Shown here piece after piece: positions 3,423-31,708 of a DNA stretch of 48,954 nt. The position numbers were made by a program, and so were the translations under genes. The first letter of the stretch is position 1. The number at the start of each line of letters is the position of its first letter. The DNA comes from Bacteroidota bacterium (GTDB lineage Bacteria; Bacteroidota; Bacteroidia; AKYH767-A; OLB10): NCBI GenBank assembly GCA_024643795.1, contig JAHEMF010000017.1:1-48954 (forward strand). Direction: 5' to 3'. The notes beneath the pieces were generated by a model. It saw only the letters and a list, made by a program, of their open reading frames with translations. It made no database searches and was not told where the DNA came from.

Positions 3423-3734
3423 TTACTTGGAAGAAACTACTGGTGCGTTTGTCAGGTATTTATAAATAAGTTCCTTTTGTTGTTCATTGATCTCTGAACG
3501 CTCCTGCATCTCATCAATATTTTCTTTCCATGTATGATGATCATATTGAGTTGGCGTATATAACCTGTGACAGCTTCCACATTTACTTACATATATCCTC
3601 CTTCCTTCTACCAACTCATCATAGGTAGCTGTTGCAGTGGCATGTTCAGGTGCTGGTGTATATAAAGCAGAAGCACAACCGATAAAAAATACCGCCCCGC
3701 AAAAAAGTATGATGTACTTAAAATTATAAAGCAT
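3423..3734 (-). CDS. small monoheme cytochrome c lipoprotein
   Basis: A 103-residue exported protein with a signal peptide ending at the lipobox FIGC (C20) and a single haem motif, CGSCH, at residues 52-56. The following RLYTPTQYDHHTWKENIDEM block resembles small diheme-cytochrome-related domains, in which the methionine after W..I (about M75) is the likely second haem ligand. Its start overlaps the end of the upstream barrel gene by 11 bases, so the two are almost certainly co-transcribed and co-translated. The protein probably passes single electrons in the periplasm beside that barrel. The redox partner is not identifiable from the sequence. Confidence 0.8.
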   Translation of the reverse strand: MLYNFKYIILFCGAVFFIGCASALYTPAPEHATATATYDELVEGRRIYVSKCGSCHRLYTPTQYDHHTWKENIDEMQERSEINEQQKELIYKYLTNAPVVSSK

Positions 3735-4551
3735 AAGAAAATATCAATCGTGTTTGAAACTTTTCGTACTCAGTAGTAACTAAACCTGTGCCTGACTCAT
3801 TTTTTAAACCTGCTAGCTGAGGCATTAGCGTGAAATTTATCCAGATAGGTCCTTTTACATATGAGAATCCCGGTCCGGCAAATAATGCAGAATTTTCAAG
3901 CTCGCCATCATGAAACCCATTTTTTACAGCTGCCTCGAAACCAAGATTCCAATTGGTGTTAACATTGTAGCTTAATCCATAATAAACATCAAAACTAAAC
4001 TCAAGCTCATTTTCAATTTCCTGCTCCAATTGTCCGTTGTCGTTAACACTGGATTCTATTTCCGTTTCAAATTCAAGCTCAGAGACCAGATTAACAGCCT
4101 GTAAAACACGACCTATCTGTTTATCAAGGATCACCTTAAATTCTAACTCAATTTCATCTCCACTTACTCCAAGCTCCCCATATAAGGCAGACCCCATTTT
4201 ATTAGCAGACGCATCAGACAGTTTCCATTTCCATTCATTACTGAATCCCCAGTTGAATTTCGATTCAATTTGTTTCGATCCAATTTCATCATATGATTCA
4301 AATGTAGTTGAGCCGGCATTAAGATAAAAAGCAACTTGCAGATTCTTTGCTATGCCGAATTCGTATTCAACACGTGAATCCAATGCGCGATAGAATTGAT
4401 CTTTACCTGTCCTGAGTGTATTCCAAACTTCAATCTCCCGCTGTCCCTGGTTCAGAACAATACTTTGGTAAGTGTGTGTAAACAATCTGTCTTGTGCTGA
4501 AACCGATAATGTTATCAAGCACAGTGTTAAAAGTAAACCATGTTTCTTCAT
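3724..4551 (-). CDS. outer-membrane beta-barrel protein of unknown function
   Basis: A 275-residue protein with a clear signal peptide (MKKHGLLLTLCLITLSVSAQ) followed by alternating aromatic/polar segments typical of an outer-membrane barrel, ending in a C-terminal aromatic strand (TRLIFSYAL). The start at 4551 gives a clean signal peptide; an in-frame ATG at 4590 would add 13 residues and lies inside the predicted promoter. The middle is unusually acidic, with long Glu-rich strands around residues 125-180. The gene overlaps the cytochrome lipoprotein gene downstream by 11 bases, so the pair may act together in electron or metal handling. I do not recognise a specific family. The promoter and a 35-bp palindrome lie directly upstream. 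Confidence 0.7.
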   Translation of the reverse strand: MKKHGLLLTLCLITLSVSAQDRLFTHTYQSIVLNQGQREIEVWNTLRTGKDQFYRALDSRVEYEFGIAKNLQVAFYLNAGSTTFESYDEIGSKQIESKFNWGFSNEWKWKLSDASANKMGSALYGELGVSGDEIELEFKVILDKQIGRVLQAVNLVSELEFETEIESSVNDNGQLEQEIENELEFSFDVYYGLSYNVNTNWNLGFEAAVKNGFHDGELENSALFAGPGFSYVKGPIWINFTLMPQLAGLKNESGTGLVTTEYEKFQTRLIFSYAL

Positions 4552-4587: not shown

Positions 4588-4595
4588 CAAATGTA
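4588..4595 (-). promoter_or_regulatory. -7 promoter element TACATTTG
   Basis: Exact TAnnTTTG match on the minus strand, placing transcription start about 30 bases before the ATG at 4551. No TTG is found at -33. That region is filled by the palindrome at 4594-4628. Confidence 0.55.
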
Positions 4596-4628
4596 AACAC
4601 TATTTAGAATGATTCTAAATAGTGTTTA
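4594..4628. promoter_or_regulatory. 35-bp perfect palindrome, likely operator
   Basis: Two exact 17-base arms around a single G at 4611. The core TTTAGAATGATTCTAAA (4603-4619) has the 7-1-7 geometry of Fur/PerR-family sites. It touches the -7 element and covers the -33 region of the barrel/cytochrome operon. A one-mismatch copy of the core occurs at 30576-30592. Confidence 0.6.
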
Positions 4629-11669: not shown

Positions 11670-13829
11670 ATGAAATTAAAAGTTGCAACGCTAATTCTCC
11701 TGGCAGTAATAAATGCATCTGTTTCACTTGCAGGAGGCGGCATGTGGATCCCATCTGCTATAGACTCTTTGTTGCTATCCAAAATGACCAAATTGGGATT
11801 TGGTTTAACTGCCGAAGATATTTACAGTGATTCTACAACCAGCATGAAAGATGCAGTTGTTTGGTTTGGAAAAGGGTGTACCGGAGAGATCATCTCCAAC
11901 AAAGGCCTACTGCTAACTAACTACCATTGCAGTTATAGCCAAGTGCAGGCAAGATCAACGATCAACAATGATTATTTGAAAAATGGTTTTTGGGCTCAGG
12001 CCGACTCAGCTGAACTTCCCTGTCCGGGTTTAACAGTTACATTTATCAAAAGTATCATTGATGTTTCAAAGGTTATCCTGAACTTATTACCAGACAGCAT
12101 ATCAAAAAATGAAAGAGACCTTATCATCAATACTGCTTCAGACAGTCTGGTAGGGATAAATACCAAAAACACTCATTACGGAGGCTTTGTAAAATCATAC
12201 TATTACAACAACCGTTTCTTCCTATTTATAACCGAAGAATTCACAGATGTACGACTTGTTGGAACACCACCTTCATCGATTGGTAAGTTTGGCGGTGAAA
12301 CCGATAACTGGGTATGGCCAAGGCATACAGGTGATTTTGCACTTTTTAGAGTATACGCGTCACCTGAAAATAACCCCGCTCCTTACTCCCCTGAAAACAA
12401 ACCCTTTTCTCCCCGATACCATTTCCCGATCTCATTAGAAGGAGTGAATGAAAATGATTTTACACTTGTTTATGGTTTTCCGGGAACCACCTCCCAGTAT
12501 ATAACATCAGGTGCCGTGAAATTTGAAGAAGAACAAAGAAATCCGGCACGTATTGCCATCCGAAAGAAAAAGCTTGAGATCCTTGACAAGCAAATAATGT
12601 TTAATGATACTGTAAGGATCAAATATGCAGCCACCCAACAACGCGTTGCTAATGCATATAAAAAGTGGCAGGGTGAATTTCTGGGATTAACAGCTGATAA
12701 TACCATTGATGAGAAGCTACTATTTGAACAAGAATTTAAAACCTGGGCGTCAAAAAGCGATAAAAGCAAATACATAAATATTGTTGACAGCATTAATTCA
12801 ACCTATCAAAACTATGCTCCTTACCGTATTGCAAAGGATCTCTATTACGAATGCACCAATGATCAACAAACTATCCAGCTGGTAAAAAAATATCTCGAGC
12901 TTGATAAATTGATCAGCAGCAGGAGCACAGACCAAAAAAACATTAAAAAAGCGATAGCAGTATATTCTGCTATGGCAAGAGCACATTTCAAAGGCTATCA
13001 TGCGGCAACAGACCGATTATTATTTATTGCCGTTGGTGAAATAATGTATAACAACACAGAGCCCGGTTTAAGACCTGAATATTTTACAGAGATAGACAAA
13101 TCGTCCAACATCCATCAATTTATTCAGGAAATGTATGACAATTCTGTTTTCACAGATGAACAGGAGTTGTTGAATGCTTTGAGCAAGCTGGATTATAAAA
13201 GGTCGAAATTTCTTAGGAATGATCCGCTGTTAAAATTTGTAATGTCAATAACCGAATTTGAAAGCAATACTATTACACCAAATGCCACCATTCTGGATGG
13301 ACATATCAATGATGTCATGCAACATTATATGGCAGGGTTATTAGAGATGAAAGGTGAGCAGAACCTATTTCCAGATGCCAACAGTTCATTGAGAATATCA
13401 TTTGGAAAGGTAGAAGGATTTGATCCGCAGGATGGAATAACTTACAAATACTTCACTACGCTTGATGGTATCATTGAGAAAGGAAACAGGAATAATGCAG
13501 ACTGGATCACAGACCCTAAATTATCACAACTTCAATCCATAAAAGATTATGGGCCATATGGATACAATGACACGTTAGTTGTGGCATTCATTGCATCGAA
13601 TCATACTACCGGTGGCAATTCAGGAAGTCCTGTACTCAATAAAAATGGAGAATTGATAGGAACCAATTTCGACAGAGTATGGGAGGGAACTATGAGTGAC
13701 ATTAAGTTTGATCCTTCAAGATGTCGTAATATAACACTGGATATCAGATACACACTATTTATCATTGATAAGTTTGCAGGCTGCAGCAGAATTATTGATG
13801 AGCTTACACTGACCAAAGGACAACCGTGA
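11670..13829 (+). CDS. S46 family dipeptidyl peptidase (DPP7/DPP11 type)
   Basis: A 719-residue exported serine exopeptidase that removes dipeptides from peptide N-termini. A signal peptide precedes the mature start at about residue 22 (GGGMWIP, a family hallmark). The triad is visible: H86 in LLLTNYHCSY, an aspartate near 222 in WPRHTGDF, and S651 in TGGNSGSP. R669 (NFDRVWEG) lies 18 residues after the serine. In Porphyromonas gingivalis DPP11 the same spacing separates Ser655 from Arg673, the residue that selects Asp/Glu at P1, whereas DPP7 has Gly. Acidic specificity is therefore likely but unproven. The gene starts right after a terminator, with no clear promoter of its own. Confidence 0.93.
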   Translation: MKLKVATLILLAVINASVSLAGGGMWIPSAIDSLLLSKMTKLGFGLTAEDIYSDSTTSMKDAVVWFGKGCTGEIISNKGLLLTNYHCSYSQVQARSTINNDYLKNGFWAQADSAELPCPGLTVTFIKSIIDVSKVILNLLPDSISKNERDLIINTASDSLVGINTKNTHYGGFVKSYYYNNRFFLFITEEFTDVRLVGTPPSSIGKFGGETDNWVWPRHTGDFALFRVYASPENNPAPYSPENKPFSPRYHFPISLEGVNENDFTLVYGFPGTTSQYITSGAVKFEEEQRNPARIAIRKKKLEILDKQIMFNDTVRIKYAATQQRVANAYKKWQGEFLGLTADNTIDEKLLFEQEFKTWASKSDKSKYINIVDSINSTYQNYAPYRIAKDLYYECTNDQQTIQLVKKYLELDKLISSRSTDQKNIKKAIAVYSAMARAHFKGYHAATDRLLFIAVGEIMYNNTEPGLRPEYFTEIDKSSNIHQFIQEMYDNSVFTDEQELLNALSKLDYKRSKFLRNDPLLKFVMSITEFESNTITPNATILDGHINDVMQHYMAGLLEMKGEQNLFPDANSSLRISFGKVEGFDPQDGITYKYFTTLDGIIEKGNRNNADWITDPKLSQLQSIKDYGPYGYNDTLVVAFIASNHTTGGNSGSPVLNKNGELIGTNFDRVWEGTMSDIKFDPSRCRNITLDIRYTLFIIDKFAGCSRIIDELTLTKGQP

Positions 13830-19327: not shown

Positions 19328-21157
19328 TTAATGATCTCCTGGTCTGTTTGATTCAGGAGTCTCTGAAGCAGGTACCGTTTGAGGAATAAAATCCTCTTTG
19401 GCTCCAGGCTTACTATAATCATAGGGCCAACGATGTACCTCAGGAATTTCACCAGGCCAGTTGCCGTGTAAATGTTCAACCGGTGCTGTCCATTCGAGGG
19501 TATTCGACCTCCATGGATTCTGAGGAGCTTTAGGGCCTTTGAACATGCTATAGAAGAAGTTGAAGGCAAAAATTAACTGCGCCACACCTGCAAGCAGGGC
19601 AAATACGGTTATAAGTTCATTGATGTTTATCAAGCCATCCCAACCCTCATATGCGGTATTAGTATAATATCTTCTTGGTACACCTGCTAACCCTATGAAA
19701 TGCATGGGGAAGAATACCGCATAAACACAAATTAATGTTGTCCAGAAATGAAAATAACCTAAGGTCTTATTCATCATTCTTCCGAACATTCTGGGGAACC
19801 AGTGGTAAACTCCTGCAAACATTCCAAAGAATGCCGAGCTTCCCATTACAATATGGAAGTGCGCAACTACGAAATAGGTGTCGTGCAAATTAATATCCAG
19901 TGCTGAGTCTCCCAATATGATACCTGTTAGTCCACCTGTGATAAAGAAAGAAACCAACCCGATTGCAAACATCATAGCAGGCGACAGAATAATATTTGCC
20001 TTCCAGACTGTAGCGATATAGTTGAAAACTTTAACAGCTGACGGAATTGCAACCAGCAGTGTAGTAAATACGAATACAGACCCAAGGAATGGATTCATCC
20101 CTGTCACAAACATGTGGTGACCCCAAACAATGAACGATAGGAAAGCGATCACAAGCATGGAGCCGATCATGGCTTTATAACCAAAAATTGGCTTTCTGGA
20201 CATGGTTGAGATGATCTCCGATGACAACCCGAGTGCGGGTAATAATACGATATATACTTCAGGGTGACCCAGGAACCAGAATAAGTGCTGGAACAGGATC
20301 GGACTTCCGCCAACCTGATCAAGTGGTACGCCACCAATAAAGATGTCAGACAAATAAAAGCTTGTACCCATGCTGCGGTCAAACACAAGAAGAAGTGCAG
20401 CAGCAACTAATACGGGAAACGAAAGCACTCCAAGGATTGCGGTGATCATAAATGCCCAAACTGTTAAAGGCAATCTTGTCATAGACATTCCTTTTGTGCG
20501 CAAATTGATTACGGTTGCTATATAGTTAATACCTCCAAGCAATGCTGAAACTATGAACAGCACCATTGAAACCAGCCACATGGTCATACCTAAACCGGAT
20601 CCGGGAATGGCTTGCGGTAAAGCGCTGAGTGGCGGATAAATAGTCCATCCTCCTGAGGCAGGTCCTGCTTCAATAAAAATAGAAGCGAACATCACTATTG
20701 AAGAAGCAAAGAAGAACCAGAAAGAAAGCATATTCAGGAACCCTGATGCCATATCACGTGCTCCTACCTGAAGGGGAATAAGCAAGTTGGAAAATGTACC
20801 AGACAGCCCACCCGTCAATACAAAGAACACCATGATGGTTCCATGTATGGTAACCAAAGCAAGGTAAAATCCTGAATCCAACACTCCGCCTTTACCCCAT
20901 TTTCCAATGATACTTTCAAGGAATGGGAACGGGTGATTAGGCCATGATAACTGTAGCCTAAAGATCATTGACATCCCCATTGCCAGGAATGCCATGAAGA
21001 TGGCTGTTATCAAAAACTGTTTGGATATCATCTTATGATCGGTACTGAACACATATTTGGTCCAGAACGACTGATGATGGTCATGATGGTCATCATGTCC
21101 GTGGCCATGGTCATGTGACACAGCTGGTGCGGCATGAATATTTTCCTTGATTTCCAT
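19328..21157 (-). CDS. coxA: cytochrome c oxidase subunit I, A1-type haem-copper oxidase
   Basis: A 609-residue, 12-helix catalytic subunit that reduces oxygen to water and pumps protons. The ligands are all visible: H105 and H435 for haem a, H433 for haem a3, and H298 with H347-H348 for CuB. The cross-linking Y302 lies in HPEVY. D135 (D-pathway entry), E300 in HPEVY and K376 (K-pathway, IPSAVKVF) define an A1-type proton-pumping enzyme. H425-D426 match the Mg/Mn site. Residues 15-28 hold eight histidines (HDHGHGHDDHHDHH), probably flexible and possibly copper-binding. It is the last gene of the operon, 27 bases after coxB, and is followed by a strong terminator. Confidence 0.97.
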   Translation of the reverse strand: MEIKENIHAAPAVSHDHGHGHDDHHDHHQSFWTKYVFSTDHKMISKQFLITAIFMAFLAMGMSMIFRLQLSWPNHPFPFLESIIGKWGKGGVLDSGFYLALVTIHGTIMVFFVLTGGLSGTFSNLLIPLQVGARDMASGFLNMLSFWFFFASSIVMFASIFIEAGPASGGWTIYPPLSALPQAIPGSGLGMTMWLVSMVLFIVSALLGGINYIATVINLRTKGMSMTRLPLTVWAFMITAILGVLSFPVLVAAALLLVFDRSMGTSFYLSDIFIGGVPLDQVGGSPILFQHLFWFLGHPEVYIVLLPALGLSSEIISTMSRKPIFGYKAMIGSMLVIAFLSFIVWGHHMFVTGMNPFLGSVFVFTTLLVAIPSAVKVFNYIATVWKANIILSPAMMFAIGLVSFFITGGLTGIILGDSALDINLHDTYFVVAHFHIVMGSSAFFGMFAGVYHWFPRMFGRMMNKTLGYFHFWTTLICVYAVFFPMHFIGLAGVPRRYYTNTAYEGWDGLININELITVFALLAGVAQLIFAFNFFYSMFKGPKAPQNPWRSNTLEWTAPVEHLHGNWPGEIPEVHRWPYDYSKPGAKEDFIPQTVPASETPESNRPGDH

Positions 21158-21184
21158 ATTACAACTTTAGATCAGGATTCGCAT

Positions 21185-22231
21185 TTAAACAGCAGCATTA
21201 GCTGCTTCATTATTATCTACTGTATTATCTATCTGATTGTTTTGTGCAGGCACAACTTCAGGTGCCGGAACTACAGGTCTCTCACCTTTGAGCCAACTGT
21301 CAAATTCAGCCTGTTCAACAACCACTACTTTCATTTTCATTGTATAGTGAGCTACTCCACAAATTTTATTGCACACCAGCACATAATCGAATTTTTCATT
21401 TCCGGTAATCTCTCTCATTTGGGCTGTTGTGATAGTTGGCTCCATATAGAATCGTGTGGTCATACCGGGAACACAGTTCATTTGAGCACGGAAATGCGGG
21501 AAGTATGCAGAGTGCAAAACATCTCTGGAGTCAAATTCAAATAAGATAGGTTGACCAACCGGAATATACATTTCATTTGCCTTGGTCATAATATCATCCG
21601 CTGCAGCGGGATCTGAAACATCAACTCCCAATGGGTTGTCGTCTGCAATTAATCGGAAGTTTGATTTTCCCAGCATGTTATCAGCACCTGCATATCGTGT
21701 GATCCAGTTGAACTGATATCCATAAACCTGAACCACCATTCCGTCGCCTTTATTGACATCATTAGTGATGCGGTTCCATGAACTCAATCCTGTGATGATC
21801 AATGCAGAAAGTACAATTGTAGGAATGATGGTCCACAACATTTCCAGCTTCATGTTCTCAGGATAGAAATATGCTCTCCTTGAAGCACTATGACGATATT
21901 TATAAACGAACCAGAATAATGCGATTTGAGTAATAAAAAATACAATGCCAATGACAGCAAAATTTATATTCAGCAGGAAGTCTGTTTCTTTACCATGCTT
22001 AGATGCTGCCTCAGGGAGCATGAAAGGCTGATACTTCAAAGTCATGTATATCATCAGACCTAGGCCTGCGATCATGAAGGTCATCATTCCAATTCCGTTC
22101 CATTTATCATGTCGGGCCTGTGTTTCATCTTTGTCTTCACCGGAAAGCGAAGATGCAAGTTGAACTACGTTCAATAACCTTGCGGTTACTAAAACACCCA
22201 GGAGAACGGCTATTATCAACAACAAATTCAT
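21185..22231 (-). CDS. coxB: cytochrome c oxidase subunit II (CuA)
   Basis: A 348-residue subunit that accepts electrons at its periplasmic CuA centre. The ligands are complete: H240 and the motif C287-NKI-C291-GVA-H295-YT-M298. The residue equivalent to the canonical backbone-carbonyl glutamate is K289, which should be tolerated. There is no C-terminal cytochrome c domain, so this is not a caa3-type subunit; the tail is Ala/Asn/Pro-rich and disordered. The N-terminus has about four hydrophobic segments (1-20, 47-63, 88-110, 131-150), more than the usual two. Electrons therefore probably arrive directly from ACIII or via a soluble or lipid-anchored cytochrome. Confidence 0.95.
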   Translation of the reverse strand: MNLLLIIAVLLGVLVTARLLNVVQLASSLSGEDKDETQARHDKWNGIGMMTFMIAGLGLMIYMTLKYQPFMLPEAASKHGKETDFLLNINFAVIGIVFFITQIALFWFVYKYRHSASRRAYFYPENMKLEMLWTIIPTIVLSALIITGLSSWNRITNDVNKGDGMVVQVYGYQFNWITRYAGADNMLGKSNFRLIADDNPLGVDVSDPAAADDIMTKANEMYIPVGQPILFEFDSRDVLHSAYFPHFRAQMNCVPGMTTRFYMEPTITTAQMREITGNEKFDYVLVCNKICGVAHYTMKMKVVVVEQAEFDSWLKGERPVVPAPEVVPAQNNQIDNTVDNNEAANAAV

Positions 22232-22267: not shown

Positions 22268-23461
22268 TTATATAGAATGGTGTAAACTCTCCTGCAACAT
22301 TGGATGGTTTTCACGCAGTAAAGGAGCTTTTGCAAGTGCATTCAGCATTACAAACATGAACAAACCTGCAAACCCGAGGGCAGTACCAATTTCCATCCAG
22401 CCAATGTGCCAGTGCTCACCAACTACACCGGGAGTGATCATTAGAAAGGTGTCAATCCAGTGACCTATTATCAATATTACTCCAACTATAAGCAGTGTAT
22501 TTGTCTTTCTTTTAGCATCTCTTGTCATCAACACAATGAATGGAGTGATGAAGTTTATAAAGAAGTTGGTCCAGAATAGTACACGATAGTGATCGAAGCG
22601 TAACATGAAATATGTAACCTCTTCAGGAATATTCGCATACCATATTAACATGAATTGTGCAAACCATAAATAAGTCCAGAAAACACTGAATGCAAACATG
22701 AACTTACCTATATCGTGCAAGTGGTGTTCAGTAACCCATGGCATTAATCCTTTTTTTACAAGGTAAGCTGTGGTTATTCCGATTACTGATAAACCACTGA
22801 TGAACAATCCTGCAAATGTATACCACCCAAAAAGTGTAGAGTACCAGTGTGTATCTATAGACATTACAAAATCCCAGGCTGAAGTTGAAGAAGTGATAGC
22901 AAACAATACAAGAAATGCTGCTGAAATGCGTTTAGCTTTTTTATAAAATGCCTGGCCTCCTTCTTTATCTTCTCTCAGAGAAAGTTTTCTGAGGGTTAAT
23001 GTAAACCCGATCCAAACCGCAAAGTATACCAGCATTCTGGTCACGAAGAAAGGCAGGTTAAGATACGCTGATTTGCCATCGATGATTTTATCGTATTCAG
23101 GAGAAGCCGGATCATATAGATCATGGTGAAGCCAGTGGTATAAATAATGCCCGCCATTGTTACCAGCAATAAGATTACCAAAAAATACGATCAACATCAA
23201 AACGGCGGCATATGGTAAAAATGCGCCCATTGCTTCTGGGATTCTCTTTACAGATACAGACCACCCAGCCTCGGCAGCATATTGCAGAGCAAGAAAAAAT
23301 GTTCCGCACAGTGCTATCACCATGAAGTAAAAAGTATTGTGCAGCAAATTAGACCATGCCTGATGACTATGGGTCATGAAACTGGCTGCTATAGATATGA
23401 GCCCTATCCCGATCAGGATAAAACTGATCATTCTGGCTCTGTTTGATAATACGTAATTCAT
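22268..23461 (-). CDS. actF: alternative complex III subunit ActF
   Basis: A 397-residue polytopic membrane subunit of the quinol:cytochrome c oxidoreductase ACIII, of the PsrC/NrfD-like type with about ten helices. Recognisable blocks are the Trp/His-rich DFVMSIDTHWYSTLFGWYTF segment and FWTYLWFAQFMLIWYANIPE, which occur in ActF. In the complex it pairs with ActC; its quinone-site role is less certain than that of ActC. It sits between actE (14 bases) and coxB (36 bases), in the standard act gene order. It has no cofactor motif of its own. Confidence 0.92.
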   Translation of the reverse strand: MNYVLSNRARMISFILIGIGLISIAASFMTHSHQAWSNLLHNTFYFMVIALCGTFFLALQYAAEAGWSVSVKRIPEAMGAFLPYAAVLMLIVFFGNLIAGNNGGHYLYHWLHHDLYDPASPEYDKIIDGKSAYLNLPFFVTRMLVYFAVWIGFTLTLRKLSLREDKEGGQAFYKKAKRISAAFLVLFAITSSTSAWDFVMSIDTHWYSTLFGWYTFAGLFISGLSVIGITTAYLVKKGLMPWVTEHHLHDIGKFMFAFSVFWTYLWFAQFMLIWYANIPEEVTYFMLRFDHYRVLFWTNFFINFITPFIVLMTRDAKRKTNTLLIVGVILIIGHWIDTFLMITPGVVGEHWHIGWMEIGTALGFAGLFMFVMLNALAKAPLLRENHPMLQESLHHSI

Positions 23462-23475
23462 AACTCTTCCTTTTA

Positions 23476-24117
23476 TTAGTTATTGGCTGCCCCTGTGTTT
23501 GCCTCTGAATTATCAGCGGCTACAGCGGGCTCAGCCGCAGCCATCATATCACGAACGTACATCGTGATCTTCCAACGTTCCTCAGGATCAAGCTGAGATG
23601 CATGTGATCCCATGAGATTAATACCATAAGTAATTGTGTGGAATATTTTACCGGGTGTAAGGTCGCGCATATTTCCTCCCCTTGAAGATACACCGGTTAT
23701 GTATGAAGGTGGTGGTGGAAACTTGCCGGTTGCTATCAAAGAACCATCGCCTCCGCCTGTTGCACCATGACATTGCATGCAAAAGTTTTCATATAAATAT
23801 TTGCCCCTGTCCAGGTTCAATTGATTCTTTTCAAATGGATTTGCAAGGTCTCTTCCTGCAGCCTCATACCCTTCATTGGTTGAAGGGTAGTTAAAAAAGG
23901 TGTAATCACGGGGCATGGTTCCTTTAACAGGGACAAGTGCTGAAACGCTGTCATCAAACATCGTATTGGGAGCATAAGTCTCATATGATGGTGACCTGTA
24001 CATATCCGGCATAAACTCAAGGCCGGGTTTACTGCTATCCTTACCACATGAAGTGATAAACGCCATTGCAGCTACCAACACTAAACCCTGAGAAAACCTG
24101 TTTACATTCATTTTCAT
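23476..24117 (-). CDS. actE: alternative complex III monoheme cytochrome ActE
   Basis: A 213-residue lipoprotein with a signal peptide ending at C24 (ITSC). The single haem motif is CMQCH at 113-117, and the distal ligand is probably M169 in ITYGINLMGSH. Pro-rich loops (GKFPPPPSYITG) and the DPEERWKITMYVRDM helix fit a class I cytochrome domain. In ACIII this subunit receives electrons from the multihaem ActA and hands them on towards the oxidase. The C-terminal 30 residues are Ala/Asn/Glu-rich and disordered. It lies 15 bases from actD and 14 from actF. Confidence 0.93.
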   Translation of the reverse strand: MKMNVNRFSQGLVLVAAMAFITSCGKDSSKPGLEFMPDMYRSPSYETYAPNTMFDDSVSALVPVKGTMPRDYTFFNYPSTNEGYEAAGRDLANPFEKNQLNLDRGKYLYENFCMQCHGATGGGDGSLIATGKFPPPPSYITGVSSRGGNMRDLTPGKIFHTITYGINLMGSHASQLDPEERWKITMYVRDMMAAAEPAVAADNSEANTGAANN

Positions 24118-24132: not shown

Positions 24133-24651
24133 TTAGTCTTTTGTATAAAGTGCGCCCATCGCAGTCATTGCAGCTTTAGCATCTTCAGCCTCAGCTCCGG
24201 TTGCTGCTTCAATGGTCATTACAAATCTGTCATCAGCCATACGGTCATCAATCACATGCGGCTCAACGCCCGGAAGTATCTTACTTCTCAGAAAGAAGGT
24301 AATAGCCATTCCATGAGCTGCACACAAAACCGTGAATTCAAATGTTACCGGGATAAAGGCCGGCATATTCTTATAAAAAGCAAAACTGGGTTTACCACCA
24401 ATATCCATTGGCCAGTCGAATATGTTCATGTAGTACATCATAAGAAATGCAAGGCTTGTGCCTGTGATGCCATACAAGAATGTACATATTGATAAACGTG
24501 TGCGCTTTAAACCTAATGCAGGATCCATTCCGTGAATAGGAAATGGAGAAATAACATCAACAACGTTATATTTTTTGGCTCTGAGCGTTTTTACCGCCTC
24601 AAGAACCACATCGTCGTCTTCAAATATTCCATATACTTTTTTAGTGGCCAT
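24133..24651 (-). CDS. actD: alternative complex III subunit ActD (DUF3341)
   Basis: A 172-residue inner-membrane subunit with a cytoplasmic N-terminal ferredoxin-like region (GIFEDDDVVLEAVKTLRAKK, then DVISPFPIHGMD), two membrane helices (about 58-78 and 95-117) and a cytoplasmic C-terminal tail with DDRFVMTIEAATGAEAEDA. This is the DUF3341 architecture of ActD, a structural subunit without cofactors. Its start overlaps the actC stop by 11 bases, so the two are coupled, and actE follows after 15 bases. Confidence 0.93.
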   Translation of the reverse strand: MATKKVYGIFEDDDVVLEAVKTLRAKKYNVVDVISPFPIHGMDPALGLKRTRLSICTFLYGITGTSLAFLMMYYMNIFDWPMDIGGKPSFAFYKNMPAFIPVTFEFTVLCAAHGMAITFFLRSKILPGVEPHVIDDRMADDRFVMTIEAATGAEAEDAKAAMTAMGALYTKD

Positions 24652-26029
24652 GATTGTCAGCTCCTTTCTTTTTAGCTTGAGAACTTGAACTCTTAACTAT
24701 GGTTTTCAATTCGCTCATTGCAATAACAGGGAAGAACCTGGTGAACAAGAGGAACGGAACAAAAAACAGTCCGAGTGAACCTATGAATATGCCTACTTCC
24801 ACCCATGTTGGATGATACATGGCCCAACTTGATGGAACATAGTCGCGATGCAGAGATGTTACAATGATCACAAATCTTTCAAACCACATACCAATATTTA
24901 CAAAAATGGATATGATGAACGTTGCGAATACACTTGTGCGAAGTTTTGATGACCAGAATAGCTGCGGAGTGATAACGTTACATGTCATCATACTCCAGTA
25001 TGCCCACCAATATGGCCCTGTGGCACGATTGATAAACGCATATTGTTCATATTCAACTCCGGAATACCATGCAATGAAGAATTCGGTCAGGTAAGCTACA
25101 CCTACGATTGAACCTGTAAGCAATATGATCCTGTTCATCATATCTATATGGTAGATGGTGATGTAATCTTCCATATTAAGGACCTTACGGGTTATAATAA
25201 GTAGTGTTTGCACCATTGCAAAACCTGAGAATATAGCACCGGCAACAAAATATGGTGGGAAGATGGTAGTGTGCCATCCCGGGATAACAGACGTTGCGAA
25301 GTCCATGGATACAACCGAGTGAACAGATAGTACAAGTGGTGTGGATAACCCTGCCAGCACAAGTGATAACTCTTCAAATCGCTGCCAGTTTTTTGCAGTT
25401 CCTGTCCATCCAAAACTTAGTATAGTATACCAGAACTTTGAAGCTTTAGTTTTAGCACGATCTCTTACTGCAGCAAAATCAGGAATAAGACCTGAGTACC
25501 AAAATACCAGAGACACGGAGAAGTATGTAGAGATCGCAAATACGTCCCACACAAGTGGTGAATTGAAGTTAACCCACAATGAACCAAACTGGTTAGGTAA
25601 TGGAAGCGGCCAGTATGCAACCCACGGCCTTCCCATGTGTGATACAATGAAAGATGCAGCACATATTACAGCAAAGATGGTCATTGCTTCCGCCGACCTG
25701 TTGATAGAGAGTCTCCACTTTTGTCTGAATAATAACAGGATGGCAGAGATCAGCGTACCTGCGTGACCAATACCGACCCACCATACAAAGTTGGTAATAT
25801 CCCATGCCCAACCAACAGTTTTATTGAGCCCCCATACACCCAGTCCGGTACCAACCGTGTATGAAACTGATATGATCCACCATAAAAGTGCTGCTGAAGC
25901 AATGGTGAAAGCTATCCACCACCACTTATTCGCTTTTCCTTCTATGGGGCGGCAGATATCCTCAGTAATCTGGTGATAAGTTTTATCACCCAGTATTAAC
26001 GGTTCCCGCAGTTCTGATTCGTAGTGCAT
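24641..26029 (-). CDS. actC: alternative complex III quinol-binding subunit ActC
   Basis: A 462-residue polytopic protein of the NrfD/PsrC family with about ten helices, the subunit of ACIII thought to hold the quinol-oxidation site next to the iron-sulfur subunit ActB. Family blocks include NFVWWVGIGHAGTLISAILL near residue 85 and VIPGWHTTIFPPYFVAGAIF near 255. The N-terminal ITEDICRPIEGK stretch is cytoplasmic. It follows actB by 42 bases and overlaps actD by 11 bases. Confidence 0.94.
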   Translation of the reverse strand: MHYESELREPLILGDKTYHQITEDICRPIEGKANKWWWIAFTIASAALLWWIISVSYTVGTGLGVWGLNKTVGWAWDITNFVWWVGIGHAGTLISAILLLFRQKWRLSINRSAEAMTIFAVICAASFIVSHMGRPWVAYWPLPLPNQFGSLWVNFNSPLVWDVFAISTYFSVSLVFWYSGLIPDFAAVRDRAKTKASKFWYTILSFGWTGTAKNWQRFEELSLVLAGLSTPLVLSVHSVVSMDFATSVIPGWHTTIFPPYFVAGAIFSGFAMVQTLLIITRKVLNMEDYITIYHIDMMNRIILLTGSIVGVAYLTEFFIAWYSGVEYEQYAFINRATGPYWWAYWSMMTCNVITPQLFWSSKLRTSVFATFIISIFVNIGMWFERFVIIVTSLHRDYVPSSWAMYHPTWVEVGIFIGSLGLFFVPFLLFTRFFPVIAMSELKTIVKSSSSQAKKKGADNHGH

Positions 26030-26071: not shown

Positions 26072-29000
26072 TCAAGCGTTGCCGGATGAAGGTATCTTGT
26101 TTCTAACTTTTGTATGATAATAAATTGATGGCTGTACATTCAGCTCTTCCAGCAAATGGTACTTCCTCTCGTCCTTTTGTAACTGAGAAAGCTTGCTCTC
26201 TGAATTGTTGTAATCGCCAAATATTATTGCATTAGTTGGGCACGACTGAGCACAAGCAGTGTTGATCTCGCCATCGCCAGGACGACGTCCTGCTTTTTTA
26301 GCTTCCAGTTTACCATATTGTATTCTTTGAACACACATGGTACACTTCTCCATCACACCTCTTGAACGTACCACAACATCAGGATTAAGTACCATTTTAC
26401 CCAAGTCACTGTTCATATTATAATCGAACTGGTCGTTATCTGAATACTTCCACCAGTTAAATCTTCTTACCTTATACGGACAGTTATTGGCGCAATAACG
26501 GGTTCCTACACATCTGTTATAGGCCATCATATTTAGCCCTTCTGAACTATGAGTTGTAGCTGCAACAGGACATACCGTTTCACATGGAGCATGATTACAA
26601 TGCTGACACATCACCGGCTGGAATACAACCTCGGGGCTGTCTGAAGGCTTTTCCATTTCAAGCAACATACCCATCTTACCAAGACCTTCTTCCTTCGCCT
26701 TCTCTTCATTCATATCACTGGTATAATATCTGTCGATACGTATCCAGTGCATCTCTCTTGCAATATCTATCTCTTTCTTACCTACTACAGGTACGTTATT
26801 TTCTACCTGACAGGCAATAACACATGATCCGCATCCGGTGCAAGAGTTAAGGTCGATTGACATTCCCCAGAAATGGTTTGGTTTATCAAAGCCGGGATTT
26901 TTAGGTGAAGCCCATAAATCAACTTCTGTTGCGAGTTTCTTACCCTGATATGTTTCTATCATCACATCCGGATTACCTGCTTTAGGATCTTTCAGATATG
27001 CATCAAGGTTAGTTTCTTTTACAATTGCCCTTCCCATCATAGTATGGTGGGTTTGTGTGGCAGCTAAAAGATAATCGTCATCAGTGGTTTTGGTTATACT
27101 TCCACCTAATGATTCCATATGCACAGTACCGTTAGAGTATGTAGCAAATGGATATGCGTTGAATCCAAGTCCTTCAGCAGCTTTACCGGCAGCAGTACGA
27201 CCATAACCAATTGCAATGGCTACTGTATTCTCCGCCACACCCGGCTGTATTAAAACCGGCCCCTTTACTGTAACTCCGTTGGCAGTAAGTTCAACAACAT
27301 TTCCCTGCACAAGTCCTAGTGAAGTTGCCATACTTGGAGCCATCGCTATATAATTGTCCCAACAAACTCTTGAGATTGGGTCAGGCAACTCCTGAAGCCA
27401 TGGATTATTTGCCTGGTTACCGTTACCGATCCCGGCTTTTTCATAAAGTACAATATCAACTCCTGTGCTTTTTACTCCGTTAAGAGCAGAAGCCGCCGAA
27501 TTAATATCACCGTTATATTGAATAGCTTGCCTTTCTGTGTTTCCTGTATTGAACACTCCGTTTTGGAGTGCTGAGTTCCAGAATGCCTGTGCAGATGTTA
27601 CCTCTGATTGCATTCCGTACATATTACTCATCCATCTGTTCTGCAGATAAGTGTAGTAATCTTCATGAGCAAGTCCTGCCCATTTAATGAGACTATCTTG
27701 CATCTGACGAGTGCTGAACAATGGCTTTATCACAGGCTGAGCCAAGCTAAAGTGTCCTTTTACTGGTTCAGCATCATCCCATGATTCTAGAAAGTTGTGT
27801 GATGGACATACATACTCTGCCATTGCCGAAGTTTCGTCAGGGCGATCAGAAGTTGTTATCACCAAAGGAACTTTCTTTATGGCTGCCTCAACCGCACTCT
27901 TGTTAGGCCAGCTATATACCGGATTAGCACCGTATATGATAAGAGCATTGATCTTACCTCCTGCCATCTCACTCATAAGTTCTTCAACCTGACCATCAAT
28001 ACATTGACGCATGTTAGAAGGCTGATCAAGATTGATGATATTTTCATAGGCTCCCAAAAGTGTATTGATTGCATTAACAACTTCCTGCATGTTTGCATCA
28101 TTGTTACCACACAATACAACTGCTTGTCCGCGAGCATTCCAAAGATCTTTAGCTGCAGCTGACAAAGCATCATCAAAAGGTGTAATTACTTTAGTTGCTT
28201 CCTGTACACCAGCCATGGAAGCTATTTTGTTATACAAAGAAACCGCAACCGCACCCATTTGAGACGGGCGGACCCTTGTTCGGTGATCGGCATTGCTACC
28301 GGTAAGCGAAAGGTTTGATTCAAACTGATAATGCCTGGACATCTCTTTCTTCCCGAATAGTTTTCTATTCTCTGCATACTGTCTGGCATGTTCTACCGGA
28401 CTTAACCAGGCAGACAAGAAGTCACAATTCAAAGAAGTGATCATTCTTGCTTTTGAAAGATCGTAAGTAGGAATATCTGCTTTGCCAAACGACTTTTGGT
28501 TGGCCATGCGCATTCCCGAAAATGATACTGCATCATATGTAACATGCTTAGTGCCGGGTAGAGCGGTTGCCACTTCGTTAATAAGTGCATGAGTTGAAGG
28601 ACTCAGCAAGGTAGATGTCAGTATCCTTATTTGCCCACCGGCATTGGAGATCTCAGCAAGTTTTGCTTTTATATTGGAATCGATGTTTGCCCAACCTGCT
28701 GTTTCACCTTTTATTGAAGGGCCTTTGTAACGAGCATCATCATAAAGACTAAGTACAGAAGCCTGTATACGTGCACTGGTGGCGCCTTTAGAAATGGCAC
28801 TTTGTTCGTTACCATCAATCTTAATTGGTCTTCCTTCTCTTGTTTTGATTAGGATAGCGCTGTAATCGTGGCCGTCAGAAAAAGTAGAGGCATAATAATT
28901 GGGGACGCCGGGAGTGATCTCTTCCGGCTTTATCACATAAGGGATAGCTTTACGAACGGGAGCTTCGCATGCAGCAAGGCTGGCCGCTGCCATACCAAAG

Positions 29001-29167
29001 CCCATGAACTTTAGGAAGTCACGACGAGAAGTTGAATCTGCTGACTCGGCCTTCTTTCCTAAAACCTCATCAACAGGAAGATGCTCGTAGAACTCATTGT
29101 TTTTAAGTCGAACAAATTCAGCATCATTCTTAAGCTCCTCAACACCTTTCCAGTATTTCTTTTCCAT
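26072..29167 (-). CDS. actB: alternative complex III iron-sulfur/molybdopterin-like subunit ActB
   Basis: A 1031-residue periplasmic subunit. An extended N-terminus precedes a Tat motif, S47-R48-R49-D-F-L-K, and a hydrophobic stretch ending in a lipobox-like AAC at C67, so export is probably Tat-dependent with lipid anchoring. Residues about 70-740 form the molybdopterin-oxidoreductase-like domain, which binds no Mo cofactor in characterised ACIII. The C-terminal ferredoxin-like domain carries the cysteine clusters: CTGCGSC...C near 774, CQHCNHAPC...CP near 859, CVGTRYCANNCP near 888, and CTMC near 942 with CAQSC near 970. Together these suit one 3Fe-4S and three 4Fe-4S centres. TatA is encoded in the same window. 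Confidence 0.95.
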   Translation of the reverse strand: MEKKYWKGVEELKNDAEFVRLKNNEFYEHLPVDEVLGKKAESADSTSRRDFLKFMGFGMAAASLAACEAPVRKAIPYVIKPEEITPGVPNYYASTFSDGHDYSAILIKTREGRPIKIDGNEQSAISKGATSARIQASVLSLYDDARYKGPSIKGETAGWANIDSNIKAKLAEISNAGGQIRILTSTLLSPSTHALINEVATALPGTKHVTYDAVSFSGMRMANQKSFGKADIPTYDLSKARMITSLNCDFLSAWLSPVEHARQYAENRKLFGKKEMSRHYQFESNLSLTGSNADHRTRVRPSQMGAVAVSLYNKIASMAGVQEATKVITPFDDALSAAAKDLWNARGQAVVLCGNNDANMQEVVNAINTLLGAYENIINLDQPSNMRQCIDGQVEELMSEMAGGKINALIIYGANPVYSWPNKSAVEAAIKKVPLVITTSDRPDETSAMAEYVCPSHNFLESWDDAEPVKGHFSLAQPVIKPLFSTRQMQDSLIKWAGLAHEDYYTYLQNRWMSNMYGMQSEVTSAQAFWNSALQNGVFNTGNTERQAIQYNGDINSAASALNGVKSTGVDIVLYEKAGIGNGNQANNPWLQELPDPISRVCWDNYIAMAPSMATSLGLVQGNVVELTANGVTVKGPVLIQPGVAENTVAIAIGYGRTAAGKAAEGLGFNAYPFATYSNGTVHMESLGGSITKTTDDDYLLAATQTHHTMMGRAIVKETNLDAYLKDPKAGNPDVMIETYQGKKLATEVDLWASPKNPGFDKPNHFWGMSIDLNSCTGCGSCVIACQVENNVPVVGKKEIDIAREMHWIRIDRYYTSDMNEEKAKEEGLGKMGMLLEMEKPSDSPEVVFQPVMCQHCNHAPCETVCPVAATTHSSEGLNMMAYNRCVGTRYCANNCPYKVRRFNWWKYSDNDQFDYNMNSDLGKMVLNPDVVVRSRGVMEKCTMCVQRIQYGKLEAKKAGRRPGDGEINTACAQSCPTNAIIFGDYNNSESKLSQLQKDERKYHLLEELNVQPSIYYHTKVRNKIPSSGNA

Positions 29168-29202: not shown

Positions 29203-30450
29203 TTAATAGTGGCAACGGGCACACTCAAGTCCGCCAATCTTTTCAACTGTCATGCGTGCTTCTTCGCCATATTTCTCTTTTAACTTTTCATGTAATTCGG
29301 TATAATAGCCATTGCCATCCATACTTACTTCGGTTTGACGGTGACATTCAATGCACCATCCCATTGTTAATGGTGAGAATTGCTTGACAACATCCATCTC
29401 CTGAACCGGGCCATGACATGTCTGGCATTCCTGTTTTCCAACCACATAGTGTTGTGCGTGGTTGAAATAAGCCAGATCAGGAAGATTATGGATACGAATC
29501 CATTGAACCGGCTTTTGATCCGGACCATATTGCTGGGTATTAGGATCATAATCCAAAGCTGCATATATCTTGGCTATTTCAGTTTTTCCATAAACCGGAC
29601 CTTCCTGAACATACTTATGGCAGTTCATACAAACATTAACAGAAGGGATGTTTGCATGCCTGCTCTTTAATGCTCCTGAGTGACAGTAAACGCATGAAAT
29701 TCCATTTTGGCCAGCATGAAGTTTGTGCGAAAATTTGATGGGTTGTTCAGGTGCATAGTCTTGTGAAATGCCTATCCCCGCAAGGGCATCCCACCCTTTA
29801 ATACTTCCCCAAACCGATCCTACTACAAATAATACAGCGATCAGTTTTTTGTTGGATCTTACCCAATTCTTGGTGGCTCTTGTTGTTGTAACCGGCTCAA
29901 GCTCAGGGAGTCCCTGTCTGGAACGCACCAACCTCTCTAAAGATGTTTTAACCTTGCCAAGGGCAACGAATATGATAAGAAGCGTAAGTATAACGATCAA
30001 CAATACCCAAGGAAACCCAGGTTCTGCATCAGCTGTTTCACCTGCCCCTACAGGACCTTTAACAGCAGTTGTAGCAGCTTTTTCACCTTCAGCCTTTACA
30101 TAGTCAAGGATTGAAATGATCTCTTCATCAGAAAGTGCAAACGCCGGCATAACCGTTTTATTCGCTTCTTCATAGATCTTAATAGCATACTCATCACCTG
30201 CTTTGATCAGCGATTGTGAGTTCTTTATCCACTTTACAAGCCATTCCTGGTTTTTTCTAGTGTGAATATTCTTAAGACCCGGCCCAATGACCTTATTTTC
30301 TCCAACACTGTGGCACTGTGCACATTGGCTCTTAAAAAGCCCCTCGCCATCAGGCTGGGCCTGAGTATTGGCTGCTGGGAACAGAAAAAGCAGTGTGAAT
30401 AAAACAAGTAGTGCCTGACAAGTCCTGGTGGCAAACATGCTACCTTTCAT
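29203..30450 (-). CDS. actA: alternative complex III multihaem cytochrome ActA, six CxxCH motifs
   Basis: A 415-residue multihaem subunit and the first gene of the operon. After a signal peptide there is a class I cytochrome c domain with CAQCH (43-47) and a likely distal M101 in VMPAF. A membrane helix (148-165) and a second hydrophobic segment (203-216) follow, then a class III-like domain with five motifs: CVYCH 253, CMNCH 274, CQTCH 342, CIECH 366 and CARCH 410. The pentahaem part matches characterised ActA; the N-terminal monoheme module adds a sixth haem beyond the five described for Rhodothermus. Upstream lie a -7 element (30523-30530), a leader dyad (30473-30487) and the Fur-like site (30576-30592). 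Confidence 0.93.
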   Translation of the reverse strand: MKGSMFATRTCQALLVLFTLLFLFPAANTQAQPDGEGLFKSQCAQCHSVGENKVIGPGLKNIHTRKNQEWLVKWIKNSQSLIKAGDEYAIKIYEEANKTVMPAFALSDEEIISILDYVKAEGEKAATTAVKGPVGAGETADAEPGFPWVLLIVILTLLIIFVALGKVKTSLERLVRSRQGLPELEPVTTTRATKNWVRSNKKLIAVLFVVGSVWGSIKGWDALAGIGISQDYAPEQPIKFSHKLHAGQNGISCVYCHSGALKSRHANIPSVNVCMNCHKYVQEGPVYGKTEIAKIYAALDYDPNTQQYGPDQKPVQWIRIHNLPDLAYFNHAQHYVVGKQECQTCHGPVQEMDVVKQFSPLTMGWCIECHRQTEVSMDGNGYYTELHEKLKEKYGEEARMTVEKIGGLECARCHY

Positions 30451-30522: not shown

Positions 30523-30530
30523 CAAATTTA
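30523..30530 (-). promoter_or_regulatory. -7 promoter element TAAATTTG of the ACIII operon
   Basis: Exact TAnnTTTG match on the minus strand, giving a leader of about 65-70 bases before actA. There is no TTG at the -33 spacing, which suggests that an activator is needed. Confidence 0.55.
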
Positions 30531-30575: not shown

Positions 30576-30592
30576 TTTAAAATGATTCTAAA
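30576..30592. promoter_or_regulatory. Fur-like 7-1-7 site TTTAAAATGATTCTAAA
   Basis: Differs by one base from the core of the 4594-4628 palindrome (4603-4619). It is centred about 66 bases upstream of the predicted actA transcription start, a position more usual for an activator site. Confidence 0.5.
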
Positions 30593-30752: not shown

Positions 30753-30760
30753 TACATTTG
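30753..30760 (+). promoter_or_regulatory. -7 promoter element TACATTTG
   Basis: Exact TAnnTTTG match, 18 bases before the SPOR gene ATG at 30779. It supports that start over the in-frame ATG at 30719, which lies upstream of the promoter element. Confidence 0.5.
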
Positions 30761-30778: not shown

Positions 30779-31189
30779 ATGCGATATTCAAAAACTTTTG
30801 CGGCAATTTTCCTTTTAATGGCAGGGAGTACAATGCTGATCAATACCGATGCTAACGGTCAATACTATAGTATTTCGAAGCAGGACAGTTTGGTAAAAGT
30901 TTTAATTAAAAGACATATTGCGCTTTGTCAGGCTAAGAAGACAATACCCGGATATAGGATCCAACTTTATTTTGGCCCTGACAGAAATGAAGCAATGAAG
31001 GTCAAAGAGGATTTTGAAAAAACAAACAAGGAACTAACGGCTCATCTTTCATATCAACAACCAAATTTTAAGATAAGGGTTGGTGATTATACTTCAAGGC
31101 TTGAAGCATTGAGGTCCTTAAAAGACATTCACTATATTTTTAGTTCTGCTTTTCTTGTTAAGGATGATGTGAATTTGCCAGTTTATTAA
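30779..31189 (+). CDS. exported SPOR-domain protein
   Basis: A 136-residue protein with a signal peptide (MRYSKTFAAIFLLMAGS) and a single C-terminal SPOR domain of about 70 residues (GYRIQLYFGPDRNEAMKVKE ... KIRVGDYTSRLEALRSLKD). SPOR domains bind denuded peptidoglycan, so this is probably a small periplasmic cell-wall binding protein. The ATG at 30779 is preferred because it gives a proper signal peptide and lies after the -7 element; an ATG at 30719 would add 20 residues. It is followed by the YkgJ-type gene after 15 bases, so the two may share a transcript. Confidence 0.85.
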   Translation: MRYSKTFAAIFLLMAGSTMLINTDANGQYYSISKQDSLVKVLIKRHIALCQAKKTIPGYRIQLYFGPDRNEAMKVKEDFEKTNKELTAHLSYQQPNFKIRVGDYTSRLEALRSLKDIHYIFSSAFLVKDDVNLPVY

Positions 31190-31204
31190 CTGTTCGTTTT
31201 TTAC

Positions 31205-31708
31205 ATGAAAATTTATTCTGTCAATGAATTATCATTAGAAAAGAAAAACAATAATGATCAGAACAAAGCTTGCTTGAACAGGCTGAGAAGCCTTTCCTCC
31301 AAGGCATTTGATGAAAAGATCCATAGTATAGCCAGGCTGGTTATTGATCAAATTGATTGTACGAAATGCGGCAACTGCTGTAAAAGCTCATTCGTTGGTA
31401 TACAAAAAAATGAGGTGTCACGAATTGCCGGTTGCTTTGATATCACAACTGAAGAATTCATACAATACCATATGGCTGTGGAACCGGATGGGGAAGGAGG
31501 GTACCTAAAAACAAAGCCATGCCCCATGTACATAGAACATCATTGTAGTATATATGAAGAACGTCCCCGCTCTTGCAAAGAATACCCCGGGATCCTTAAT
31601 TCACAATTAAAGTTCAGACGCCATAGAATTCTTGAAGAATACGGAATTTGCCCAATAGTTTATCATACCATTGAGATGCTGAAAAAAGACAATAGGCAAT
31701 TAGAGTGA
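31205..31708 (+). CDS. YkgJ family cysteine-cluster protein
   Basis: A 167-residue cytoplasmic protein with the YkgJ/UPF0153 pattern CxxCxxCC (C52, C55, C58, C59 in DCTKCGNCCK) and further conserved cysteines C106, C114 and C124 in KPCPMY, HHCSIY and PRSCKEYP. The set is thought to bind zinc or iron; no reaction is established. It probably shares a transcript with the SPOR gene 15 bases upstream. It ends 20 bases before a convergent gene. Confidence 0.87.
   Translation: MKIYSVNELSLEKKNNNDQNKACLNRLRSLSSKAFDEKIHSIARLVIDQIDCTKCGNCCKSSFVGIQKNEVSRIAGCFDITTEEFIQYHMAVEPDGEGGYLKTKPCPMYIEHHCSIYEERPRSCKEYPGILNSQLKFRRHRILEEYGICPIVYHTIEMLKKDNRQLE

Follow-up and report, generated by a model that had tools for sequence, protein, structure and literature searches.

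A Fur-type box at a conserved distance from alternative complex III promoters in Bacteroidota points to probable iron-dependent activation of respiration

In a stretch of Bacteroidota DNA of 48,954 nucleotides (the window), a Fur-type box lies upstream of the promoter of the alternative complex III (ACIII) operon. Because the box is shared with iron-uptake genes and keeps a fixed distance to the promoter, it is probably an iron-dependent switch for iron-hungry respiration. We observed the motif, its sharing with iron-uptake genes, its conservation, two promoter geometries and a phasing of one helical turn, and we consider it likely that Fur carrying iron represses iron uptake and acts as a direct activator of iron-rich respiratory enzymes. 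We also lean, with less assurance, towards the broader claim that Fur is a dual regulator phylum-wide, with phased upstream boxes directly driving ACIII, Na+-NQR, succinate dehydrogenase and cbb3 oxidase, as a transcriptional, RNA-free form of iron sparing across much of the phylum.

The window belongs to a genome of 2.88 Mb in 110 contigs (G000). Two copies of the palindrome are relevant here, one ahead of the ACIII operon and one ahead of a gene pair for a probable outer-membrane barrel and a cytochrome. The features around them, with the strand in brackets, are:

3423–3734 (−), small lipoprotein cytochrome with one CxxCH haem site (weak PF09626 match)
3724–4551 (−), DUF6662 protein, probably an outer-membrane barrel (PF20367), with a cytochrome partner in relatives
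4588–4595 (−), TACATTTG, −7 element of the barrel/cytochrome promoter, overlapped by the 35-bp palindrome in repressor geometry
4594–4628 (no strand), perfect 35-bp palindrome with the Fur box 4603–4619 at its centre
19328–22231 (−), cytochrome c oxidase subunits II (21185–22231) and I (19328–21157), as the operon continues
22268–23461 (−), probable actF by position, without a Pfam match
23476–24117 (−), actE, cytochrome c
24133–24651 (−), actD (PF11821 ActD, E = 2.6e-57)
24641–26029 (−), actC, NrfD-type membrane subunit (Pfam/profile matches)
26072–29167 (−), actB, molybdopterin-like and Fe-S subunit (Pfam/profile matches)
29203–30450 (−), actA, multihaem cytochrome c, first gene of the ACIII operon (Pfam)
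30523–30530 (−), TAAATTTG, Bacteroidota-type −7 element of the ACIII operon, 45 nt downstream of the box
30576–30592 (−), Fur-type box upstream of actA, TTTAGAATCATTTTAAA when read on the actA strand
30753–30760 (+), TACATTTG, −7 element of the divergent SPOR gene, 160 nt from the box
30779–31189 (+), secreted SPOR-domain protein, divergent from actA

The SPOR gene is followed by one for a CxxCxxCC protein (PF03692; region 30779–31708).

Checked against the window sequence, TTTAAAATGATTCTAAA occupies 30576–30592 exactly and is one base apart from the 4603–4619 core, as the initial annotation had described it. The annotation had also placed the site about 66 bases from the predicted actA start, and this figure needs correcting: the start is the ATG at 30450, so the box lies 125 nt from it, and 66 nt is approximately the distance from the box centre to the inferred transcription start, placed about five bases past TAnnTTTG. 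When both strands were scanned, the one further match within three mismatches, at 11821, fell inside the ORF 11670–13829; there is therefore no other copy upstream of the window genes, as had been proposed. With the two sites each matching on both strands, five matches within three mismatches were counted in the window against 1.1 expected, a number reached in 1 of 100 shuffles. An Rfam search of the window gave no match.

Across the whole genome the motif occurs above random frequency, with five palindromic sites within one mismatch of TTTARAATNATTYTAAA and none for a reversed control. Scored with a weight matrix built from feoA boxes only, the window site at 4603 reached 26.2 bits, the maximum, and that at 30576 reached 23.1 bits; the remaining matches in the genome within two mismatches mostly had low scores and no nearby promoter. 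The other sites within one mismatch lie upstream of sufE (L003), upstream of feoA–feoB (L004) and near the gene of a secreted protein (L005).

The company that the motif keeps in other genomes is similar. It stands 19–37 nt upstream of a FeoA domain in 20 of the 30 relatives read, and further sites lie ahead of TonB-dependent receptors, of a ScdA/RIC-type hemerythrin protein and of Rieske-type genes. The window genome encodes one FUR-family protein (PF01475, E = 3.6e-27); the solved proteins nearest to it in sequence are Fur proteins, and its best structural matches are Fur proteins as well. By sequence and gene company, then, the window motif is a Fur box, presumably bound by Fur. A search for the DtxR family (PF02742) in the window genome returned no match, which rules out DtxR as the regulator there, and four genomes (G000, G024, G033 and G040) combine a feoA box and FUR with the absence of DtxR. 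Autoregulation of Fur was considered and rejected, as just one weak site was found near a fur gene.

To place the actA site in its phylogenetic context, we compared actA upstream regions. An actA homologue was found in 61 of 61 genomes searched, and the −7 element TAAATTTG is kept in nearly all relatives' actA upstream regions. The sister genus (G009 and G014) has an ActA of 70% identity and shares the 17-mer without a change, again 45 nt from TAAATTTG. Identity between the window and this genus is 22/22 over the site plus five bases, 30/31 over the promoter block and 15/24 over the spacer, and just 14/49 over the 49 bases upstream of the site. Weaker versions occupy nearly the same place in three genera of the family (g5, g7 and g2), several genera have none, and a good site is missing from the standard position in several genera of the family and order to which the window belongs.

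We also applied the matrix built from feoA boxes to the 350 nt upstream of actA at 80 named Bacteroidota loci, and at 66 of them a site reached the cut-off of 13 bits, against 0.8 expected from shuffles; the site is thus present upstream of actA in relatives. At 69 of the 80 named loci, or 35 after merging near-identical segments, a site lies 44–58 nt from TAnnTTTG or TAnnTTCG. The consensus of the actA sites at named loci is TTATTTAGA-N5-T[A/C]TAAATT[A/G]; the middle of these sites is less conserved than that of feoA sites, and their promoter-side half is T[A/C]TAAA. Family f3 has a related palindrome some 300 nt ahead of actA (L026, L310 and L317); in L310 and L317 its distance to the −7 element is about 175 nt, which an activator model leaves unexplained.

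The boxes take two kinds of position relative to the promoter. At the DUF6662/cytochrome pair and at sufE the box ends 7–8 nt before the −7 element, and at feoA of the window genome it follows that element, all of these being repressor positions. At actA 45 nt separate the end of the box from the −7 element, and the box centre falls near −66 relative to the inferred start. The initial annotation proposed a single regulator that could repress the barrel/cytochrome pair and activate ACIII; this geometry (7 versus 45 nt) and conservation support the idea well, with Fur as the putative bound protein.

To examine the spacing more widely, we scanned 149 whole genomes for TTTAGA-N5-TNTAAA followed by TAnnTTTG within 40–60 nt. 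This composite gave 117 matches in 80 genomes (reversed control, 27 in 22), and 21 of the 30 matches fetched as loci proved to be upstream of actA. Spacings of 45–47 nt (48 matches) and 56–57 nt (35 matches) dominate, with few between (n = 117); 89 of the 117 fall into 44–47 or 55–58 nt (p ~8e-17 if uniform, the bins having been chosen post hoc and the genomes being related). The two peaks are about 11 bp, or one helical turn, apart, as expected for an upstream protein touching RNA polymerase. Across the 117 matches the peaks keep one helical phase to the promoter and differ by a whole turn, which is the behaviour expected of an upstream (class I type) activator. The same architecture as at actA was found at nqrA (G045, G050, G094 and G130), at sdhC–sdhA (G073, G088 and G119), at ccoS–ccoN of cbb3 oxidase (G062) and at a 4Fe-4S ferredoxin (G127), targets that are all iron- or redox-centred. 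Genus g5 (L280 and L281) has a box 46 nt from a promoter ahead of a small membrane protein of 112 aa.

FUR was undetected in 8 of the 149 genomes. Six of these (G008, G027, G034, G075, G085 and G123) have no composite, and G008 also lacks a feoA box and any site within one mismatch; FUR-less G004 has one composite, at a gene other than actA. G069, which is 99% complete and has no detectable FUR, keeps an actA composite with the 45 nt spacing (L387). With too few FUR-less genomes and this one counterexample, co-occurrence of FUR and composite was set aside as proof of the regulator, whose identity therefore rests on motif identity and gene company.

The actA site of G069 would be accounted for if a non-Fur regulator with a near-identical palindrome, responding for example to oxygen, redox state or haem, activated the respiratory promoters, and Fur acted only on feoA-type boxes. 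So would the degenerate centre of the actA consensus (TTATTTAGA-N5-T[A/C]TAAATTA), at which feoA boxes keep AATnATT. However, the feoA-trained matrix recovers the actA sites by itself, the actA- and feoA-type boxes of the window genome are the same 17-mer within two or three bases, and the complex III cluster responds to iron in published RNA-seq (PMC7221216). We therefore consider a separate regulator unlikely, while giving it more weight than the alternatives that follow.

It is much less probable that the site serves the divergent SPOR gene, or that Fur represses actA from there. The SPOR gene is divergent from actA also in the sister genus and in distant families, and in two genomes (G073 and G129) overlapping boxes are phased to both the actA and the divergent SPOR promoters, but it is the distance to the actA −7 element that is exactly kept (45 nt in the window and the sister genus), and not that to the SPOR promoter. 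This variable spacing led us to reject the box as a regulator of the SPOR gene alone. Repression of actA would have to be reconciled with a site well upstream of the promoter, unlike the repressor boxes, and with a complex III cluster that rises with iron in Elizabethkingia (PMC7221216).

A PerR box sensing peroxide is more doubtful still. The sole FUR protein has a glutamate at the position of the aspartate of Bacillus subtilis PerR (Asp104), and the targets seen are iron-uptake, Fe-S and respiratory genes, with no peroxide genes among them; these points outweigh the likeness of the 7-1-7 layout to PerR boxes and the presence of B. subtilis PerR among the structural matches of the FUR protein. 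Of the iron or peroxide sensing first suggested for the site, iron is thus retained, in view of the feoA, sufE and TonB-receptor boxes, the single FUR gene and the published RNA-seq, and peroxide finds no support in view of the Fur glutamate. A chance match in A+T-rich DNA, which the short, A+T-rich site and the modest window shuffle count might by themselves suggest, is already refuted by conservation and phasing across many families and has a negligible probability.

We return to Fur as both repressor and direct activator. In an iron-replete cell, iron-loaded Fur would bind the box upstream of the actA promoter (centre about −66) and recruit or help RNA polymerase, so that the iron-rich ACIII and oxidase operon would be switched on; on promoter-overlapping boxes, Fur would turn off feoAB, suf and the DUF6662/cytochrome pair. 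Under iron shortage Fur would leave, uptake would come on, and the costly haem and Fe-S respiratory complexes would go down. We infer both that Fur is the bound protein and that its binding activates.

Published expression data bear on this model. In RNA-seq of the flavobacterium Elizabethkingia anophelis, a quinol:cytochrome c oxidoreductase cluster was 4.1–8.6-fold higher in iron-rich medium (PMC7221216); its authors call the cluster bc1, and in our reading it has ACIII gene content. Succinate dehydrogenase and a cytochrome c oxidase subunit ranked with the genes most strongly induced by iron, and expression of siderophore and TonB-receptor genes dropped with iron (PMC7221216). For Riemerella, the same paper refers to a comparable increase in electron-transport genes, and its passages on Fur leave the regulator unnamed. 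Fur purified from Riemerella requires Mn(II) to bind a TonB-receptor promoter (PMC7976709). The literature searched, with subscription papers mostly outside it, held no direct report of Fur acting on respiratory genes in Bacteroidota, and it held no Fur footprint, mutant or start-site data for these promoters.

For the matching of respiration to iron in Bacteroidota, that literature offers expression data and no mechanism. The phased box supplies a concrete cis-element and suggests a regulator for the way complex III, SDH and NQR are reported to respond to iron, and lets iron-regulated respiration be predicted in uncultured Bacteroidota from sequence alone. If the model is true, direct activation by Fur would extend from scattered cases to core energy metabolism.

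The pair at the other window site was also surveyed. A DUF6662 protein and a one-haem lipoprotein are adjacent in eight genomes, the window's own included, and a ninth has a DUF6662 relative only. Fur boxes lie just upstream of the pair in three genomes from three families (the window genome; G031, with two boxes; and G029). The pattern suggests that an outer-membrane barrel and an exported redox protein form pairs repressed by Fur; as a guess, such pairs may serve in ferric iron reduction at the cell surface or as an electron conduit. DUF6662 is named in no paper of the literature searched. FUR-less G027 has the pair in the neighbourhood of a DtxR-family gene and of an ORF reading like a metal transporter (L254, 2398–6319). 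In G028 a Fur box is followed by genes for a probable barrel and a Rieske-like lipoprotein and by an imelysin-like gene; in G033 the genes behind it are for a Rieske protein and a probable barrel. L262 (2449–5001), L259 and L260 show an alternative way of combining a barrel with a redox protein in genera other than the window's, with a probable outer-membrane barrel, an exported Rieske-like protein and an imelysin-like gene behind the box.

The system resembles the known Fur regulon, for which binding to a TonB-receptor promoter was demonstrated in Riemerella anatipestifer (PMC7976709), in having a 7-1-7 palindrome at feoAB, TonB-receptor and suf promoters and one FUR protein, and the core here is TTTAGAATnATTCTAAA, compared with GATAATGATAATCATTATC quoted for the Riemerella Fur box. 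Unlike in that known regulon, some boxes here are placed well ahead of respiratory promoters, with two spacings that differ by one helical turn. CRP-type class I sites likewise lie upstream of −33/−35 at spacings one helical turn apart, but CRP is of another protein family, and the promoter here is of the Bacteroidota type. The Irr box of alphaproteobacteria, TTTAGAAnnnTTCTAAA, has almost the same sequence as the window box, and Irr belongs to the same protein superfamily; Irr was rejected as the regulator, as the only FUR protein of the window genome scores 33–35 bits on Irr models (cut-offs 150–170) and fits them far more weakly than Fur models.

In the RyhB iron-sparing response of Proteobacteria, a small RNA acts after transcription. 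The outcome is shared, in that iron-rich enzymes such as SDH drop when iron is scarce, but the element found here is a promoter site rather than a small RNA. Direct activation by Fur is known at norB of Neisseria and in Helicobacter. As in those cases, metal-loaded Fur upstream of the promoter would raise transcription; here, in contrast, it would do so for whole iron-rich respiratory operons, phylum-wide and at two phased spacings.
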